Assembly: GCF_000235565.1 (NCBI RefSeq)
Contig: NC_017527.1
Location: 124,001-188,000 of the forward strand
Source: Methanothrix harundinacea 6Ac
GTDB lineage: Archaea > Halobacteriota > Methanosarcinia > Methanotrichales > Methanotrichaceae
DNA: 64,000 nt
Direction: 5' to 3'
Position 1 is the stretch's first letter, and each line of letters starts with the position of its first letter. The translations under genes and the position numbers were made by a program. The notes beneath the pieces were generated by a model. That model saw nothing but the letters and a program-made list of their open reading frames with translations. It ran no database searches and had not been told where the DNA came from. Of this stretch, positions 40,450-48,988 are shown piece after piece.

Positions 40450-43119
40450 TCAAGCGCCAGGAGGCGGAGATCCCCTCAGGGCGGGCTCCGCCCCCGCCCT
40501 CTCCTCCAGGGCCCTCAAGACCTCCCCGAGCCGGTCGATCTCCTGGCCGTAGCCGGACCAGTTTCCGGCCCGGAGCTCCGCCTGGGCTGACCGGTAGAGG
40601 GACCCCGCCTCCCCGATCAGCTCCTCGGCGGTGAGGGCGCCCGCCCCCATCCCCGGTCCAGCCCTGGGGGCCGCCGGCGCCAGGTCGAAGATCTTGCCGA
40701 GGGCGAGCTCCAGGGTCTCCTCCATCACCAGCCTGTTGCCGTAGGCTACGACCACCCTCCGCAGCTCCGGCAGCTCCCCCACATCCGCCCGGAGGTAGAT
40801 CGGCTCGACGTAGAGGAGGCTGCTATCTATCGGGATCACCAGGAGGTTCCCCCTGATGACGGTGGACCCCATCTGGTCCCAGAGGGTCAGCTGCTCGGAG
40901 ATCTCAGTGGACTGGTCTATCCTCGCCTCGATCTGCATCGGCCCGTAGACGAGCTGGTCCTTCGGGAACCGGTATACCAGGATCTGGCCGTAGTTCGGCT
41001 GGTCGCACTTTGCAGACATCCAGGCGATCATGTTGTTCCTGGTCCGGGGGGTGAAGGGCTGGATCAGCATGAACTCCTCGGCGACCTCGCTCTCGGGGAT
41101 CTTCATGATGACGTAGTAGGGCTCCATCGGCTGGCTCCGCCCCTGGTATATCTCCATCGGCGTCTCCCAGGCGTCCTCCTTGTTGTAGAAGATCTGGGGG
41201 TCGGTCATGTGGTAGTTCTGGTATATCCCGGCCTGGATCCGAAAGAGGTCGACGGGATACCTCATGTGGGCCAAAAGCCCCTCCGGCATCGAGCCGATCG
41301 GCTGGAATAGGTCGGGGAAGATCGCCTCGTAGGCCCTGATGAGGGGGTCGTCCTCGATGACATAGTAACTGACCGTCCCGTTGTAGGCGTCTATGACCAC
41401 CTTTACCGGGTTTCTGATATAGTTGAACCGCCCCGACGGCTCCGAGTACGGGTAGCGGCCGGATAGGGTGTAGGCGTCGATGATCCAGAAGAGGCGGCCG
41501 TCGGCCAGGACTACGTAGGGGTCCCTGTCGTAGGCGAGGAAGGGGGCGACGGTCTGCGCCCTTTCTAGGATGTCCCTGTGGATCATGATCCTGCTCTCCC
41601 CCGTCAGCTCTTTGCTGAGGAGGATCTTGGGGCTCATATGCCGGTAGGCCATCAGGAGCTTCATCACCGGATCGAGGACGACGCCGCCGGTCCCGGCGTA
41701 GGTGGTGTAGACGTTCTGGTCCCCCATGGGGTAGTCGAACTCCAGAACTTGGGTCTTGACGATGGCGTAATCCTTCCGCCCCTCTCCGTAGTAGATCTCG
41801 GGCCTATGGATATCGCCTACCTCCGACTCGGGGGGGATGTTCTTGATGAAGTACTCCGGGAGCCCCTCCTCGGTGGCGGCATTCACCGGGCTCATCGCCA
41901 CCCCGTAGCCGTGGGTGTAGAAGAGGTGGACGTTCTGCCAGGTCTTCGCCTGCTCGGGAAGCCGATCGGTGGAGATCTCCCTCGCCGAGAGCATCACCTG
42001 CCTCTTCCTCCCGTCTACGACGTACCTGTCGACGTCGGCGTCCAGGAACTCGTAGTAGAGCCGTATCTCCTGGAGCTGCTTGTAGGTGGTGAGCAGCGGC
42101 CTCCAGTCCCAGATCCGGATGTTGTCCACCGTCTCGGCGTTCCTCCTGACGTCGGCGCCGGTGAGGTTGTAGTCCACCGGAAAGTCCTTCACCACGACGT
42201 CGTCGAGGCCGTAGGCTAGGCGGGTGTAGTTTATGTTGTGGGCTATGAAGGGCCTCTCCAATGTGAGCTCGTTGGGGGCGACGCTGTACTGCTGGATCAC
42301 CACGGGGTATATCGTCCCGGCGGCCCCCGCCCCCACCACCAGAACTGCTATCGCCAGAGGGATCTTCGGGGATCTCCTCCCTGCCGCGTAGGCGAAGAGG
42401 AGGAGGGCCGAGATGGCGGCGACGGCGGCGAAGACGTAAAGGAAGGGGAGGCGGGCGTAGACGTCGGCGTAGCCTGCGCCGTAGACGACGCCTCCGCCGG
42501 TGAAGAGGAGCTCGTACCGATCCAGAAGGTACCGGGCGGAGAAGAGGAGGGCCAGGACCCCCAGGAGGGCCCCGATGTGGCCTATGGCCCTTTTTGGGAT
42601 CGACCGGGCGATCTCGAGGTAATCCCCGCCCTCCGGGCCGAAGATCAGCCGGTCGGCGTGGAGGTAGAGGTAGGCTCCGGCGGCGAGGGCCAGGTTGACC
42701 ATCACCGCCGCGAAGACCGCATACCATAGGGACCAGAGGAGGGGGAGGGTGAAGACGAAGAATCCCACGTCGTTTCCGAATAGGGGGTCGGTCGCCCCGA
42801 AGGGCTGGGCGTTCAGGGCCAGAAGGACCCTCTCCCAGCCGGCCTGGGCAGCTAATCCGAATAGAACCGATATCAAGACCACGATCCACGCCAGTTGCCT
42901 CGGCCTCTCCCCGACGAGCCTCAGGTTGGCGAGGGTCACCGCCCCGAAGGCCATCGTCGCCAGCAGAAAGAGGGCCGATCTTGCGGCGAGGATCGTCCAA
43001 AAGACGCTGGAGTAGCCGAGGGATGAGAACCATCGCCATTCCGTGATCAGATACGCCATCTGGCCTGAAGAGATCAGAAGAAGTATCAGACCTCCCAAAA
43101 ACCACCGTTCAAGCCTCAT
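40450..43119 (-). CDS. UPF0182 family membrane protein
   Basis: An 889-residue protein with seven N-terminal transmembrane segments (about 1-300), then a large extracellular domain containing ERPFIAHNINYTRLAYGLDDV, NIRIWDWRPL, YTHGYGVAMSPVN, YYGEG and EFDYPMGDQNVYT, all hallmarks of UPF0182 (COG1615). The function is unknown; the family occurs in methanogens, actinobacteria and clostridia. ATG 43119 has SD GGAGTG seven bases upstream, so I prefer it to 43143. The minus-strand TATA is aagatatatatcg near 43187. Confidence 0.94.
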   Translation of the reverse strand: MRLERWFLGGLILLLISSGQMAYLITEWRWFSSLGYSSVFWTILAARSALFLLATMAFGAVTLANLRLVGERPRQLAWIVVLISVLFGLAAQAGWERVLLALNAQPFGATDPLFGNDVGFFVFTLPLLWSLWYAVFAAVMVNLALAAGAYLYLHADRLIFGPEGGDYLEIARSIPKRAIGHIGALLGVLALLFSARYLLDRYELLFTGGGVVYGAGYADVYARLPFLYVFAAVAAISALLLFAYAAGRRSPKIPLAIAVLVVGAGAAGTIYPVVIQQYSVAPNELTLERPFIAHNINYTRLAYGLDDVVVKDFPVDYNLTGADVRRNAETVDNIRIWDWRPLLTTYKQLQEIRLYYEFLDADVDRYVVDGRKRQVMLSAREISTDRLPEQAKTWQNVHLFYTHGYGVAMSPVNAATEEGLPEYFIKNIPPESEVGDIHRPEIYYGEGRKDYAIVKTQVLEFDYPMGDQNVYTTYAGTGGVVLDPVMKLLMAYRHMSPKILLSKELTGESRIMIHRDILERAQTVAPFLAYDRDPYVVLADGRLFWIIDAYTLSGRYPYSEPSGRFNYIRNPVKVVIDAYNGTVSYYVIEDDPLIRAYEAIFPDLFQPIGSMPEGLLAHMRYPVDLFRIQAGIYQNYHMTDPQIFYNKEDAWETPMEIYQGRSQPMEPYYVIMKIPESEVAEEFMLIQPFTPRTRNNMIAWMSAKCDQPNYGQILVYRFPKDQLVYGPMQIEARIDQSTEISEQLTLWDQMGSTVIRGNLLVIPIDSSLLYVEPIYLRADVGELPELRRVVVAYGNRLVMEETLELALGKIFDLAPAAPRAGPGMGAGALTAEELIGEAGSLYRSAQAELRAGNWSGYGQEIDRLGEVLRALEERAGAEPALRGSPPPGA

Positions 43120-43343
43120 AAAAACACTCCAAAATTTAGGCAATGCTCCGCCGCCGGCATCGACATATTTGGAGACCAGCTGGCCCCGATATATATCTTT
43201 CGTCGGGGGGTCCGCCGCCGTGAATGAGAACCGCGATATGGCCAGGGATCCTCCCCTTCCATCGGTGGGCTGAAGCGGCCAGGGGACCGGGGAGGGTTAG
43301 AGGGCGCGGCACTTTTTATAGAAAAATTTTAAAAGAGGGGCGA

Positions 43344-43667: not shown

Positions 43668-46600
43668 TCAGCTCAGGTCCGAGTACTTGTTTCTGTCCCT
43701 CAGCTCCTGCTTCTTCGCCTCGTTCCATCCGCTCACCGACTGGAGGTAGCCGGTGACCCGGGATAGGTACTCCAGATGGTCGGAGCCGCACCTCGGACAC
43801 TCCTCTTTGAGCCCCGGCGAGACGCAGAAGCAGCTGAGACAGACGGTCATGTCCCTGGTGAAGGCGAAGTATCCTATCTGGGTGCTCCTCGCCAGGTTCA
43901 TGGCGAAGTCCATCAGCCCCTGGGGATCGGGGGCCGACTCCCCCAGGAAGATGTGGAATATGTTCCCCCCGTCGACGATCGGGAAGAAGATGTGCTCCAG
44001 CTTCGCCCTCTCGAAGATCGAGACGTCCAGGGAGGGCGGGATGTGGGTCCCGTTGGTGTAGTAGACGGGGAGGTCCCGGGTCTGGTGGATCCTCTTCATG
44101 GCGGTATCGAGGTCGCCCTTGACGACCCGGGCGGCGCAGTCCCGGAACTTCTCGGAGAGGAGGTCGGAGACCGCAAACCTCTGGACTACCGTCTCCGCCG
44201 GGGTCCTCGCCAACGCGATCGTCATTCCGTGGCGGCGGGATAGCTCCTTGGCGTAGATCTCCATCTCCGTCATCGCCCTCACCGCCAGCTTCCAGGCCTC
44301 CTTCGACTCATGCATCTGAGAGCCGGTATGGAACTGGACCATCTCGTTCACCCCCACGACCCCGATGGTGTAGACGAGGCTCTCCAGGTCGACGGCCAGC
44401 GTCCCCTTCTTTCCCGTCCTGGGATCCTTAGGCCTCTGGGTCGCAAAGGGCATCCTCCGGTTCTTTATCACCTGGTTCATCCACTCCCGCTTCACCTTGA
44501 AGATCTCGACGGCGGTATCCATCAGCCCCCGGAGGTACTCGAAGAGGAGGTCGTCGTCCCCCCGGGCGAGGTAGGCGGCCCGGGGGCAGTTGAGGGAGAC
44601 GACCTGCCAGGACCCCATGGAGAAGTGCATCCCTTCCTTGAAGAGGAGCTTATCCTCGAAGGCGGCGTCGCTCTCGAAGGTGGCGGCGAACTGATAGGCG
44701 CAGCAGTTTCCTGTTACGATGCCCATGGCGTTGCTGAAGTTGTGGGTCTCGGATACGTCCACAAGGTCGTAAACGTACCCGCCATATTCCTCCACCTCGA
44801 TCTCCCTTATCTCCAGGACGTGGACATCACCGCCGATCAACCGCTCGATTATGGGCGAGCCTGAAGAATCGATGTGGCGCTGATTCACGCACTTGTGACC
44901 CTGTGATCGGTATTGAGAGGGATATTTCAGATCGGCGTGCTCAAGACCGGCATTCTCTATGGGAATCCTGGTGAAAACCCCTCCTACTTCTTTCCGGTCG
45001 TCAGAAACCGCGCATCCACCGTAGCCTGTCCGGCTGTAGAAGTTCTCTATCTGATCTTGGGATGTGACGTAGCAACTATAACTGGTAAGTCGATAAGGAT
45101 TTCCGGTCTGGGGGTGTCTGACGGTCTCATCGCGAACCATGTAGTTCATCTGTACGCCGATCCTCTGAGCGAGCCAGATCAACCTCTGTACCGCATCTCT
45201 CGAGACCAGCCCAATACGGATGACATGAGCAGTGTGAGGGCGCCCGTTCAGCTCTCCTTTCTGAACATTGACGTTTCCGTCTCCCCTGAATGCGCAACAT
45301 ATGTACTCCCCCACCAGGGACGGGTCTACATTGAAGAGAAGATCTGGCACAGACTTGGTGTGGGCATCGTGGCCACACCCCAGGGCATCTATCAGGAGAT
45401 AAAGCAGCTTGCTGTTGACTACAACGTTCGTCGCGGTCTTCTCCTCTGAGACCTTAGGCTCAAGTCCGAGACTCTTGATGCATGCCATCGCATCATCGAT
45501 CAGCCCGGACTCATGTTTGCCGAAAGAGAGACGAACGGAATACCTTCTGCCACTTTGATCGCTGCAGCCCTCTGCTAGGTAATATCCCAAGAACCGGACC
45601 AATTCGGAGGTTATGGATATATTTTTGGGCAGGCCGGGCTTCTTGGCATTTTTGACGTTCACAGATTCATTATGTACGACGATCTCGTCGGCGTAACCTG
45701 CCTTCAACAGAGTCGTCTCGACATCTATCGAGGCCAGCGGAGCTAACCCGAAATCGACGTCCGTTAGAAGCGGTAGGAAGTCTCCGACGTTGAGGTCACA
45801 AGCCTGCTTTTTGACGAAATTGCCCTTATCGAGAACGTATACGGGATGGTTGGGTGTCACCCTTATACGCCGTCCTGACTTGAGGACGATTTTAAGCAGT
45901 TCCCCCTCGCATCTCTGGCGCATAACACCCTTGAACTCCCTCAGGGAGGCCTCAAGGGTATCGAAGTTGACGCTGGGAGTCCTGCCCTGGAATCGGACGA
46001 ATTCGACGCCGAATGGGTCCGTCTCTTTGCCATATTCCTCTGCTTCGGAGAAAATTTCGCTGATCTGCTTTACATGGATCTGTCCCTCGGGATCCGCCAA
46101 AGAGACCAATTCATCTTCAGCAAGACATTGATAGCAGCTTATCCCCTTCCCCGCCCCCCGGTAGGCGGGAAGCTGGTTGTCGTAGTAGGGGGTGCCGAAC
46201 TTGGAGGCGAGCTGGAAGGAGAGGAGGTAGAGGTCCCGGTAGGTCGGGACCTCGGGGTGAGCGGCGTTGAATCCATCGTCCTCGGCCATGAAGTCCGGCT
46301 CGATGGAGATCTCGGGCTTGGGGAAGTTGAAGGGCTTCCCCCAGTAGTCCCCCTCCAGCATCACCTCCATCAGGGCCTTGAAGCCGAGGCGGACCTCCTT
46401 CTCGAACTCGCCGTAGGTCCGGAGGGGAGCCCCCTCGCCATCCCAGACCTTCCCCTGGTAGACTACGGGCTTGTCCCGCCAGAGCTTCGGGACGCCGGGG
46501 CTGAGCTGGACGGAGGAGAAGACGACCTGGCCGCCCCGGGCGACCATCATCTGGGTCATCTCGTAGACGAACATCTGCATCAGCTGGCAGATCTCGGAGT

Positions 46601-47309
46601 AGTCGAGCCCCTCGAGGTACGGGGCGAGGAAGGTGAGGAAGTTGTAGAACCCCTGCCCTCCGGCGAAGTTCGTCTGGGCTGAGGCGAGGGCCTTGACGGC
46701 ATGGAGCATCGCCACCTCCGGCTTCTTCGCGGGGCCCGCGACGGAGGCCTTCGTCCCCGAGCCGTCGGGCATGAGGCCGTAGTAGAAGAAGTAGCGGAGG
46801 TCCCAGTCCTGGCAGAAGGGGCGGGTCCCGAAGTACTCCAGGTCGTGGATGTGGAGGTCGCCGGCGAGGTGGTGGTCCGATAGGTAGGGGGGGATGAGGA
46901 GGAGGTACTGCTCCTTCGATATCTTGTCCGCCTTCTTCTTGTGGCTCGTCTCGGCGTTCTCCTGGAGGTTCGCGTTCTCGTGGGCCTCGAAGCCGGAGCC
47001 GACGTCGATGAGGTGGGCGTCGTAGACGGGGGTCCCCACCCGGGTGCAGATGTTCCTCCACTCCAGGTGGTGCCTTTCGAGGAGGATGACGTTGACGATC
47101 TCCCTCACCAGCGGCCCGGAGAGGAACTTGACGTCCATCCACCGGATCCGCCGCTCCACCTCCCGGGCGATCTCCGCCGCCTCCTCCTCGGAGATGCCCG
47201 GGATCCGGTAGAACTGCTCGGAGAGCTTCGTCTCCCGGAGGAGCTGCTTCACCACCGCATCCCTGTTCCACCTCATCAGGTGGCCGTCGGTGGTTCTGAC
47301 CATCGGCAT
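43668..47309 (-). CDS. nrdD: Anaerobic ribonucleoside-triphosphate reductase with intein
   Basis: Class III ribonucleotide reductase, a glycyl-radical enzyme making deoxynucleotides without oxygen. The precursor is 1213 residues: N-extein 1-394 (with an ATP-cone-like start, VRTTDGHLMRWNRDAV), intein 395-868, C-extein 869-1213. The C-terminus has the zinc site CLSCFC...CPRCG and the glycyl-radical motif RVTGYL (G1187). The intein interrupts the conserved GISCYQ-CCAYQF. Start: the frame is open to TTG 47375, but a minus-strand TATA at 47345-47357 falls inside that extension, so ATG 47309 (MPMVRTTDG) is preferred. No activase gene nrdG is nearby. Confidence 0.95.
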   Translation of the reverse strand: MPMVRTTDGHLMRWNRDAVVKQLLRETKLSEQFYRIPGISEEEAAEIAREVERRIRWMDVKFLSGPLVREIVNVILLERHHLEWRNICTRVGTPVYDAHLIDVGSGFEAHENANLQENAETSHKKKADKISKEQYLLLIPPYLSDHHLAGDLHIHDLEYFGTRPFCQDWDLRYFFYYGLMPDGSGTKASVAGPAKKPEVAMLHAVKALASAQTNFAGGQGFYNFLTFLAPYLEGLDYSEICQLMQMFVYEMTQMMVARGGQVVFSSVQLSPGVPKLWRDKPVVYQGKVWDGEGAPLRTYGEFEKEVRLGFKALMEVMLEGDYWGKPFNFPKPEISIEPDFMAEDDGFNAAHPEVPTYRDLYLLSFQLASKFGTPYYDNQLPAYRGAGKGISCYQCLAEDELVSLADPEGQIHVKQISEIFSEAEEYGKETDPFGVEFVRFQGRTPSVNFDTLEASLREFKGVMRQRCEGELLKIVLKSGRRIRVTPNHPVYVLDKGNFVKKQACDLNVGDFLPLLTDVDFGLAPLASIDVETTLLKAGYADEIVVHNESVNVKNAKKPGLPKNISITSELVRFLGYYLAEGCSDQSGRRYSVRLSFGKHESGLIDDAMACIKSLGLEPKVSEEKTATNVVVNSKLLYLLIDALGCGHDAHTKSVPDLLFNVDPSLVGEYICCAFRGDGNVNVQKGELNGRPHTAHVIRIGLVSRDAVQRLIWLAQRIGVQMNYMVRDETVRHPQTGNPYRLTSYSCYVTSQDQIENFYSRTGYGGCAVSDDRKEVGGVFTRIPIENAGLEHADLKYPSQYRSQGHKCVNQRHIDSSGSPIIERLIGGDVHVLEIREIEVEEYGGYVYDLVDVSETHNFSNAMGIVTGNCCAYQFAATFESDAAFEDKLLFKEGMHFSMGSWQVVSLNCPRAAYLARGDDDLLFEYLRGLMDTAVEIFKVKREWMNQVIKNRRMPFATQRPKDPRTGKKGTLAVDLESLVYTIGVVGVNEMVQFHTGSQMHESKEAWKLAVRAMTEMEIYAKELSRRHGMTIALARTPAETVVQRFAVSDLLSEKFRDCAARVVKGDLDTAMKRIHQTRDLPVYYTNGTHIPPSLDVSIFERAKLEHIFFPIVDGGNIFHIFLGESAPDPQGLMDFAMNLARSTQIGYFAFTRDMTVCLSCFCVSPGLKEECPRCGSDHLEYLSRVTGYLQSVSGWNEAKKQELRDRNKYSDLS
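44706..46127 (-). other. Intein with LAGLIDADG homing endonuclease domain in NrdD
   Basis: 474 residues. Block A is CLAEDELVS at the N-splice site (Cys1); block B is RVTPNHPVYV (TxxH); a dodecapeptide-type endonuclease occupies the centre with FLGYYLAEGC and YICCAFRGDG; block F is YVYDLVDVSETHNF; it ends GIVTGN followed by Cys+1. All splice nucleophiles are present, but the usual penultimate His is Gly. GC content is visibly lower than in the exteins, consistent with independent spread. After splicing the host is 739 residues. Confidence 0.93.
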
Positions 47310-47754
47310 CTCCGATAGGGAGACGCCCTCCAGCGTGATCTGCTGACTTTTATATCCGTTAACCCTCCGGCTCAATGACAGATACCCCCGATGAGATGCG
47401 ACAGAAGGAGCGAAGAATATCTACCCCCCTGATGGCGCAATCTTCAACCATCCCTGTAAGGCCCCTAAATTTATAACCCCTTCGGCCGATATGAGGTAAA
47501 ATTATAATTAAAGTTGGTCAAAAATCCGATCCCCTCGCCGGGGAGGCATTCGTAACTCTCCATTGATATTTAAAGCCCCGGAGAAGGGCCGAATATTTGA
47601 GGTACCGACGAATAAAAACCGATTAATTCGGCCGGATGCCCCCCGCGAATTAGGTTCCGGGGGCAGTTTTCGGTTATCCGACCTCTCCGCCGATCGCGAA
47701 TGCTGAAATGCCCATCTTCCTATATTTTTGATCGAAATTCGCCCCTGGCCCCCA
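47310..47754. other. nrdD upstream region with TATA box and long inverted repeat
   Basis: It holds the nrdD TATA (minus strand, ggatataaaagtc, 47345-47357) and farther upstream an 8-bp inverted repeat, ggccgaat (47587-47594) and attcggcc (47626-47633). No coding frame is convincing. The fmn-reductase gene ends at 47755 on the same strand. Confidence 0.5.
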
Positions 47755-48297
47755 TCATCGTCCGTCACCGCCGCCTCCGAGCCGCTCGGCGTAATCGGCG
47801 AGGACGGCGTAGAACTTCTCCGCCCTCCGGTGGTAGGCCTCCTTCTTGATCGCCCCGGAGTCGTCGAAGAGATCCTGGACCTTTGGGAAGTAGAGGACCT
47901 CCCCCGTGGGTAGCATGTGGAACCGGACGCAGGTGGCGACGAGGTGCTCGATCATCCTGGCGCCGCCGAAGACCCCAGAGGAGACGCCGCAGATCCCCAC
48001 GGGCTTTCCGAAGTACTCCACGTAGAGGAGGTCGAGCATCATCTTCAGCTCCCCGGGGTAGCCGTGGTTGTACTCCGGGGAGACGATGACGATCCCGTCG
48101 GCCCGGAGGACCCGCTCCTTGAGTCGCTTCGCCGCCTCGGAGGTCTTGGAGTCGTCCGTCGCAGGGAGGCGGTAATCGCGGACGTCGATGATCTCGCTCT
48201 CGAGGCCGAACTCGGCGGCCTTCGCCAGCATGAACCTCGCGACCTTCTCGGACTCGCGCCCTGCCCGGGCGGTCCCGAGGATGATGGGGATGTACAT
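47755..48297 (-). CDS. NADPH-dependent FMN reductase family protein
   Basis: A 180-residue flavodoxin-fold protein: MYIPIILGTARAGRESEKVA (FMN phosphate loop), VIVSPEYNHGYPGELKMMLD and GVSSGVFGGARM, the classic YwqN/chromate-reductase-like set. It reduces FMN or quinone-like acceptors with NAD(P)H. ATG 48297 gives the family N-terminus; the frame to 48345 adds 16 unlikely residues. Confidence 0.92.
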   Translation of the reverse strand: MYIPIILGTARAGRESEKVARFMLAKAAEFGLESEIIDVRDYRLPATDDSKTSEAAKRLKERVLRADGIVIVSPEYNHGYPGELKMMLDLLYVEYFGKPVGICGVSSGVFGGARMIEHLVATCVRFHMLPTGEVLYFPKVQDLFDDSGAIKKEAYHRRAEKFYAVLADYAERLGGGGDGR

Positions 48298-48466
48298 AAG
48301 GTTCTTTTTCTTATTCAAGATATGAATAGCCTTTTCTCGACCCAACCGGCCGCCGTTGATCGATCCCAGCCGGCTCCGCTCCTGCTCGCGGAGTGGATAT
48401 GCCCCCGGATGGCGATCAAAAAGCGTTAATCGCTGGAACTCAAAAATAAGACCAGGTGGTGAACCT

Positions 48467-48988
48467 GTGGAGACGATCAGAACGTGTATAGGCTTCCATG
48501 GAGAGGCCGAGGAGGCGGCGAACCTCTACGTCGATGCCTTCTCTAGGGCCTTCGGAGACTCGAAGATCCTGAAGATCACATACTATGGAGATGAAGAGCT
48601 GGAGGCGCTAAGAGAAGTCCCCGATGTGACAGAGGAATTCATGCCGGGGCCTCCCGGGAGCGTGAAGGACGTCCGTTTCCTGCTGAACGGAGATGAGCTG
48701 ATGGCGTTCAACGGCGGGGGCTACTTCGGCAACTTCACCGAGAGCGTCTCCCTCTATGTCAGCTGCAAGACCCAAGACCAGATAGACGGACTCTGGGAGA
48801 AGCTCTCCGAAGGCGGGATCGAGCAGCAGTGCGGCTGGCTGAAGGACCGGTTCGGCGTAAGCTGGCAGATCGCCCCTGAGATCATCCAGGAGATCATGGA
48901 GGGGCCTGACCAGGAGAGGGCCCAGCGGGTGATGAAGGTCCTCTACGGGATGAAGAAGATCGAGATCGAAGAAATTTTGAAGGCATGA
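48467..48988 (+). CDS. PhnB-like glyoxalase-fold protein
   Basis: A 173-residue protein of the PhnB / 3-demethylubiquinone-methyltransferase-like VOC family: IRTCIGFHGEAEEAANLYVDAF, FLLNGDELMAFNGG, LSEGGIEQQCGWLKDRFGVSWQIAP. The catalytic role in archaea is unknown. GTG 48467 follows aggtggtga; ATG of the next gene overlaps its stop (ATGA), so it forms an operon with ridA. Confidence 0.85.
   Translation: METIRTCIGFHGEAEEAANLYVDAFSRAFGDSKILKITYYGDEELEALREVPDVTEEFMPGPPGSVKDVRFLLNGDELMAFNGGGYFGNFTESVSLYVSCKTQDQIDGLWEKLSEGGIEQQCGWLKDRFGVSWQIAPEIIQEIMEGPDQERAQRVMKVLYGMKKIEIEEILKA

Follow-up and report, generated by a model that had tools for sequence, protein, structure and literature searches.

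A class 1 intein in Methanothrix harundinacea nrdD whose unusual penultimate glycine is fixed throughout its family

Why does an intein lodged in the catalytic region of an anaerobic ribonucleotide reductase carry glycine where histidine usually precedes the terminal asparagine, and does this residue make splicing slow or conditional? The nrdD gene of Methanothrix harundinacea 6Ac raises this question. The gene lies on the minus strand of the window, the whole 64,000-nucleotide stretch of contig NC_017527.1 that was analysed. An NrdD search of the genome (2,571,034 bases, two contigs) returned it as the single match, and in an Intein_splicing search of the same genome the NrdD intein was the only match. 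The open reading frame (47375..43668) runs through the intein in frame, which starts with CLAEDELVSL, ends with GIVTGN and is followed by CCAYQF. The features are, in window coordinates:

43668..47375, minus strand: nrdD, class III anaerobic ribonucleoside-triphosphate reductase precursor, 1235 aa including the intein
46128..47375, minus strand: N-extein, 416 codons, ending GISCYQ (from the empty-site comparison)
44706..46127, minus strand: intein, 474 aa, class 1, C1 to Asn474, with predicted LAGLIDADG endonuclease (from families, empty sites and model)
43668..44705, minus strand: C-extein, starting CCAYQF, stop codon included (from the empty-site comparison)
46134..46136, minus strand: extein Cys -3 (Cys414 in the numbering of intein-less NrdD), candidate disulfide partner of Cys1
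46125..46127, minus strand: intein Cys1, first nucleophile, invariant
45846..45857, minus strand: block B TxxH, Thr91-Pro-Asn-His94, with T91 and H94 invariant
45567..45593, minus strand: first LAGLIDADG motif, FLGYYLAEG, residues 179-187
45273..45290, minus strand: second LAGLIDADG motif, FRGDGN, residues 280-285
44736..44774, minus strand: block F, VYDLVDVSETHNF, with F:4 Asp454 and block F His462, both invariant
44709..44711, minus strand: penultimate Gly473, codon GGA, where His is usual
44706..44708, minus strand: terminal Asn474, codon AAC
44700..44705, minus strand: Cys+1 (Cys417) and Cys+2 (Cys418, aligned with the radical Cys motif), both TGC

The first-pass annotation had described a 474-residue intein with LAGLIDADG motifs at 44706-46127, splitting GISCYQ from CCAYQF and ending in TGN+C with Gly in place of the penultimate His, and this description holds throughout; coincidence can be set aside. 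The coordinates are exact by ORF translation and empty-site comparison, the junctions and the glycine can be read directly, and FLGYYLAEG and FRGDGN are both present, intact and with their acidic residues. On the open reading frame, Pfam matches NRDD (508.8 bits), Intein_splicing (63.1 bits) and LAGLIDADG_3, the last at 23.2 bits and just above its cut-off of 22.5; the NrdD equivalog TIGR02487 scores 535 bits against a cut-off of 326, and intein_Nterm TIGR01445 is matched as well. With C1, N474, C+1, T91 and H94 of block B and D454 and H462 of block F in place, the element is by its residues a class 1 intein, unusual in a penultimate Gly that its whole family shares; the His absent here is usual in class 1 but not obligatory, and natural exceptions have been published (PMC5050341). 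A class 2 (KlbA-type) intein is excluded by Cys at residue 1, and a class 3 intein by the presence of C1 and by Asp454, rather than the Cys of the WCT triplet, at F:4. Moving the junction by one residue would leave the ligated product the same but would provide no residue-1 nucleophile, and was rejected on chemistry.

The predicted fold is that of a Hint domain plus a LAGLIDADG domain, as modelled with AlphaFold2 (mean pLDDT 80.0, with low confidence at residues 1-5). The model aligns with the TliVMA intein (7qsu; Z 34.5, 346 residues, rmsd 2.8) and with PI-PkoII (2cw7; Z 33.9, 397 residues, rmsd 3.3), and this match and the two intact motifs mark the putative endonuclease as LAGLIDADG. Both known inteins resemble the NrdD intein in fold, in blocks A, B, F and G and in having two LAGLIDADG motifs, whereas the NrdD intein differs from them by its penultimate Gly and its NrdD site, with ~17-23% identity in the structural alignments.

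The boundaries of the intein are fixed because natural intein-less alleles give the empty site, GISCYQCCAYQF. All 50 genomes of the family that were searched have an NrdD match, and most of the loci read show the sequence uninterrupted. Within the genus the intein is polymorphic: the site is uninterrupted in seven other members (L006-L012), and in one (G013, L034) the end of this intein can be read. In an alignment of archaeal with three phage NrdDs, the insertion separates Gln416 from Cys417 and lies one residue ahead of Cys418, which shares its column with the Cys of MGCR and with the second of the two Cys in MCCR; C188, C418, C705, C719 and C722 (L007 numbering) are invariant against the three phage enzymes. 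The host has the family score, the catalytic Cys pair and the C-terminal Cys motif of class III NrdD. Given this position, the partner Cys becomes Cys+1 and the radical Cys becomes Cys+2. Another common insertion site for NrdD inteins lies before Cys188, the residue that matches T4 Cys79, the Cys of the reductive half-reaction (PMC4493059).

What an insertion at this place would do to the enzyme can be judged from characterised NrdDs. According to the available text of PMC4493059, 288MGCR291 of T4 and 328SCCR331 of T. maritima align at the tip of the finger loop, and the T. maritima variants C329A and C330A are each inactive, both SCCR cysteines being essential. The exact role of the pair varies, since the T. 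maritima crystal has the motif away from the active site (PMC4493059). Because the insertion adjoins the radical Cys and both SCCR cysteines are essential, the unspliced precursor should be inactive. The alignment thus bears out the earlier statement that the catalytic cysteine segment is interrupted, and the companion statement, that the enzyme is inactive until splicing, gains from the site and from the T. maritima mutants while keeping the status of an expectation (PMC4493059). An intein in a comparable position is known from the R2 protein of Aquifex aeolicus, where it lies between active-site residues of a ribonucleotide reductase and splices in E. coli; however, R2 is a class I small subunit, and both protein and site are other than those of the NrdD intein (PMC8772380, available text).

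The penultimate glycine is not an oddity of one gene. Inteins at site 416 were gathered by a whole-family NrdD search (50 genomes) and with an intein profile (237 genomes of the class), the profile serving for split NrdD genes in the class because the class-wide NrdD search covers the best matches listed. A junction pattern that is independent of the intein C-terminal end was run on 392 genomes of the phylum, where 12 of its 13 matches are NrdD; G175 matched this pattern, but its locus has no NrdD and was discarded as a chance match. Further site-416 inteins came from a scan of genome contigs with patterns in the endonuclease part. G018, G020, G035 and others, in which NrdD is broken by contig ends, are unscored at site 416. 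After removal of duplicates, 34 distinct inteins remain, from methanogens and ANME archaea (among them Methanothrix, a Methanosarcinaceae MAG, Methanocellales, Methanoculleus and relatives, Ca. Ethanoperedens, an ANME-2 archaeon and Methanophagales). Every one with a readable C-terminal end finishes in GN (31/31), the remaining three being truncated at contig ends (L036, L105) or broken (L035). In contrast, at five other NrdD sites each of the 28 inteins that were read ends in HN (from 30 rows, two of which were dropped as intein-less sites that the pattern had missed), and so do all 17 distant outgroup inteins of other proteins that reach the junction (20 tails retrieved, 3 short of it, near-identical rows kept). 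Even the mini-inteins of 169 and 210 residues, from which the endonuclease has been lost, still end in GN. Relatives that all carry Gly and splice with normal kinetics had been named as evidence that would count against slow splicing; Gly throughout, the first half of this, is what the 31 readable inteins present.

Since the site-416 inteins share descent, these 31 ends are not 31 independent tests, and they are best read as one His-to-Gly change in the ancestor of the family, with Gly kept since. Among 30 aligned inteins, whose identity to the 6Ac intein goes down to 36%, 23 of 151 gap-free splicing-domain columns are invariant, Gly473 among them and likewise C1, T91, H94, D454, H462 and N474. 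The Gly473 codon differs silently (GGA 17, GGG 12 and GGC 2 in 31 inteins), which fits purifying selection. A reversion from Gly to His takes two base changes, so inertia may contribute to the conservation.

We consider it probable that the intein belongs to a mobile class 1 family dedicated to a single site of archaeal NrdD, just ahead of radical Cys418, with an ancestral Gly, compensation by block F and ordinary, probably efficient splicing. Splicing would take the ordinary route, in which Cys1 attacks first, the N-extein is transferred to Cys+1 and Asn474 cyclises, and the ligated GISCYQ-CCAYQF would restore the NrdD active site. The penultimate His would have changed to Gly once, in the family ancestor, and the invariant block F His462, with F:4 Asp454, would have taken over its role, so that splicing is probably efficient and not crippled. 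In the open-licence literature we found neither published splicing data nor a paper on this NrdD intein, and a precedent is the RDF (gp51) intein of mycobacteriophage Bethlehem. Like the NrdD intein, it belongs to class 1 and has a natural penultimate Gly, and the available text of PMC5050341 describes it as fully spliced at time zero, whereas its G316H variant takes >5 h to reach ~50%, and an upstream block F His is described as able to replace the penultimate His. The RDF intein differs in its unrelated host protein and in that its Gly is one of several phage variants (PMC5050341), whereas for the NrdD intein several archaeal groups share a fixed Gly at a single site.

It is possible, as a tentative alternative or addition, that a residue outside the intein places splicing under redox control: upon oxidation, a disulfide between host Cys414 and Cys1 would block the first step, and the oxygen-labile NrdD would be held as an inert precursor until reduction. 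Cys -3 and Cys1 occur together in all 33 site-416 inteins whose N-junction was read (34 distinct, the other being masked there), while Cys -3 is found in none of the 17 outgroup inteins and at none of the five other NrdD sites. In the intein of Pyrococcus abyssi MoaA, a native Cys-3/Cys1 disulfide is able to control activity (PMC3922620) and is described as protecting an oxygen-labile enzyme (PMC10663303). The MoaA and NrdD inteins are alike in this pair of cysteines and in an oxygen-labile host; however, in the available text of these two sources disulfide control is demonstrated for MoaA, whereas in NrdD it is suggested by positions, and host and site differ. In favour of the trap, Cys414 does not vary among the intein-less archaeal NrdDs compared (12 of 12); yet, as a host residue that is present even where the intein is not, it may stand at -3 by coincidence. 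The disulfide is moreover predicted from positions, in a part of the model (residues 1-5) where confidence is low. The trap is also made less likely by the hosts being anaerobes, whose cytosol rarely oxidises.

Such a trap can hold together with the preferred account of an ordinary, probably efficient splicing family. It also moves the earlier suggestion of redox dependence away from Gly473, since any redox link would possibly run through the extein Cys at -3, which we regard as a better founded lead than Gly. A fuller version is conceivable but rather doubtful: Cys414 would trap Cys1 under oxidation as an oxygen guard in NrdD of methanogens and ANME archaea, keeping as inert precursor a glycyl radical enzyme that oxygen would otherwise destroy, and the unvarying Gly would adjust the final step so that splicing starts again quickly after reduction. 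If true, the MoaA arrangement would have another natural example, its second, in an enzyme of DNA-precursor synthesis. Through Cys -3, redox gating of a glycyl radical enzyme can be tested specifically and cheaply.

Less probable is the explanation given in the first-pass annotation, that an intein without the penultimate His splices slowly or conditionally (with temperature or redox state) and so regulates deoxynucleotide supply. NrdD activity does hinge on splicing if the insertion lies in the catalytic site, and when His was put into natural non-His inteins some improved (from archaea and a chloroplast), but others worsened and some were unchanged (PMC5050341, available text). Given this mixed record, slow splicing does not follow from the lack of His, and the RDF intein, complete with Gly and slowed by His, speaks against the step from Gly to slow or conditional splicing (PMC5050341). 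A Gly kept in every readable member of the family is also unlike a decayed residue. The tie to deoxynucleotide supply is weakened further because the 6Ac genome encodes a second, intein-less ribonucleotide reductase, the class II cobalamin-dependent NrdJ, so that dNTP supply need not depend on NrdD splicing. The idea that carriage of the intein depends on NrdJ was considered and dropped: an NrdJ match is present in 10 of 13 carriers and in 150 of the remaining 224 genomes in the class, with no clear enrichment.

That the intein is decaying and has lost splicing, with dNTPs coming from NrdJ, is highly improbable: although NrdJ is encoded, the endonuclease is gone in some carriers and one carrier (G031) has a broken end, in 6Ac the frame is open through 1235 codons, every splicing residue is intact, the extein halves are strongly conserved (95 and 90% to the intein-less L007), an NrdG2-type activase gene is present (elsewhere in the genome than nrdD), and 3 of the 13 class carriers have no NrdJ match, two of these genomes being only 87 and 61% complete.

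In the preferred account of a mobile family, the predicted endonuclease would explain the spread between hosts, the 6Ac copy having arrived from outside its lineage. At third codon positions the exteins have a GC fraction of 0.92-0.94, but the intein one of 0.62. In the intein tree, the 6Ac copy falls with two Methanosarcinaceae-type inteins (support 0.969), whereas in the extein tree the 6Ac NrdD groups with Methanothrix (support 0.999); the L100 extein row, which holds part of another intein, was left out of the extein comparison. Judged by this tree conflict and by third-position GC, the 6Ac intein is a horizontal acquisition. A viral origin was rejected only as a demonstrated source: a scan of viral contigs gave 67 pattern matches and no relative, and tblastn of the intein against phages gave three weak records (26.7-27.5% identity over 31-52% of the query). 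The first-motif pattern was not found in L163-L166, L168 and L169 (genus g41, Methanoculleus-like; 457-468 residues), and the first endonuclease motif may have decayed in these six copies.

By itself, the 6Ac intein is an ordinary mobile element that carries an unusual but fixed residue. Its value lies in the comparison of site 416 with the five other NrdD sites, which provides a clean natural set for asking why some inteins dispense with the penultimate His, as Gly and His contrast within one enzyme and sometimes within one polypeptide. Methanophagales L100 (JAFNKG010000007.1) is such a case, with one NrdD frame of 2692 aa and four inteins, at reference 142, 187, 416 and 587. L061, L067, L105, L066 and L080 have NrdD inteins at additional sites (reference 273, 237 and 142), all of them ending in HN. 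Two genomes (G043 and G044; L031 and L032) have two NrdD genes each, one of them intein-less; their diverged NrdD (~62-63% to 6Ac NrdD) carries the 169-residue mini-intein at site 416. In G031 (L035) the frame of an endonuclease-less intein is broken just ahead of the C-terminal splice junction, and NrdD resumes in another frame at reference residue 438, through a deletion or an assembly error. In the window, nrdD is flanked by genes for a UPF0182 protein (40450-43143, minus strand), an FMN reductase (47755-48345, minus strand) and a 3-dmu-9_3-mt family protein (48356-48988, plus strand).
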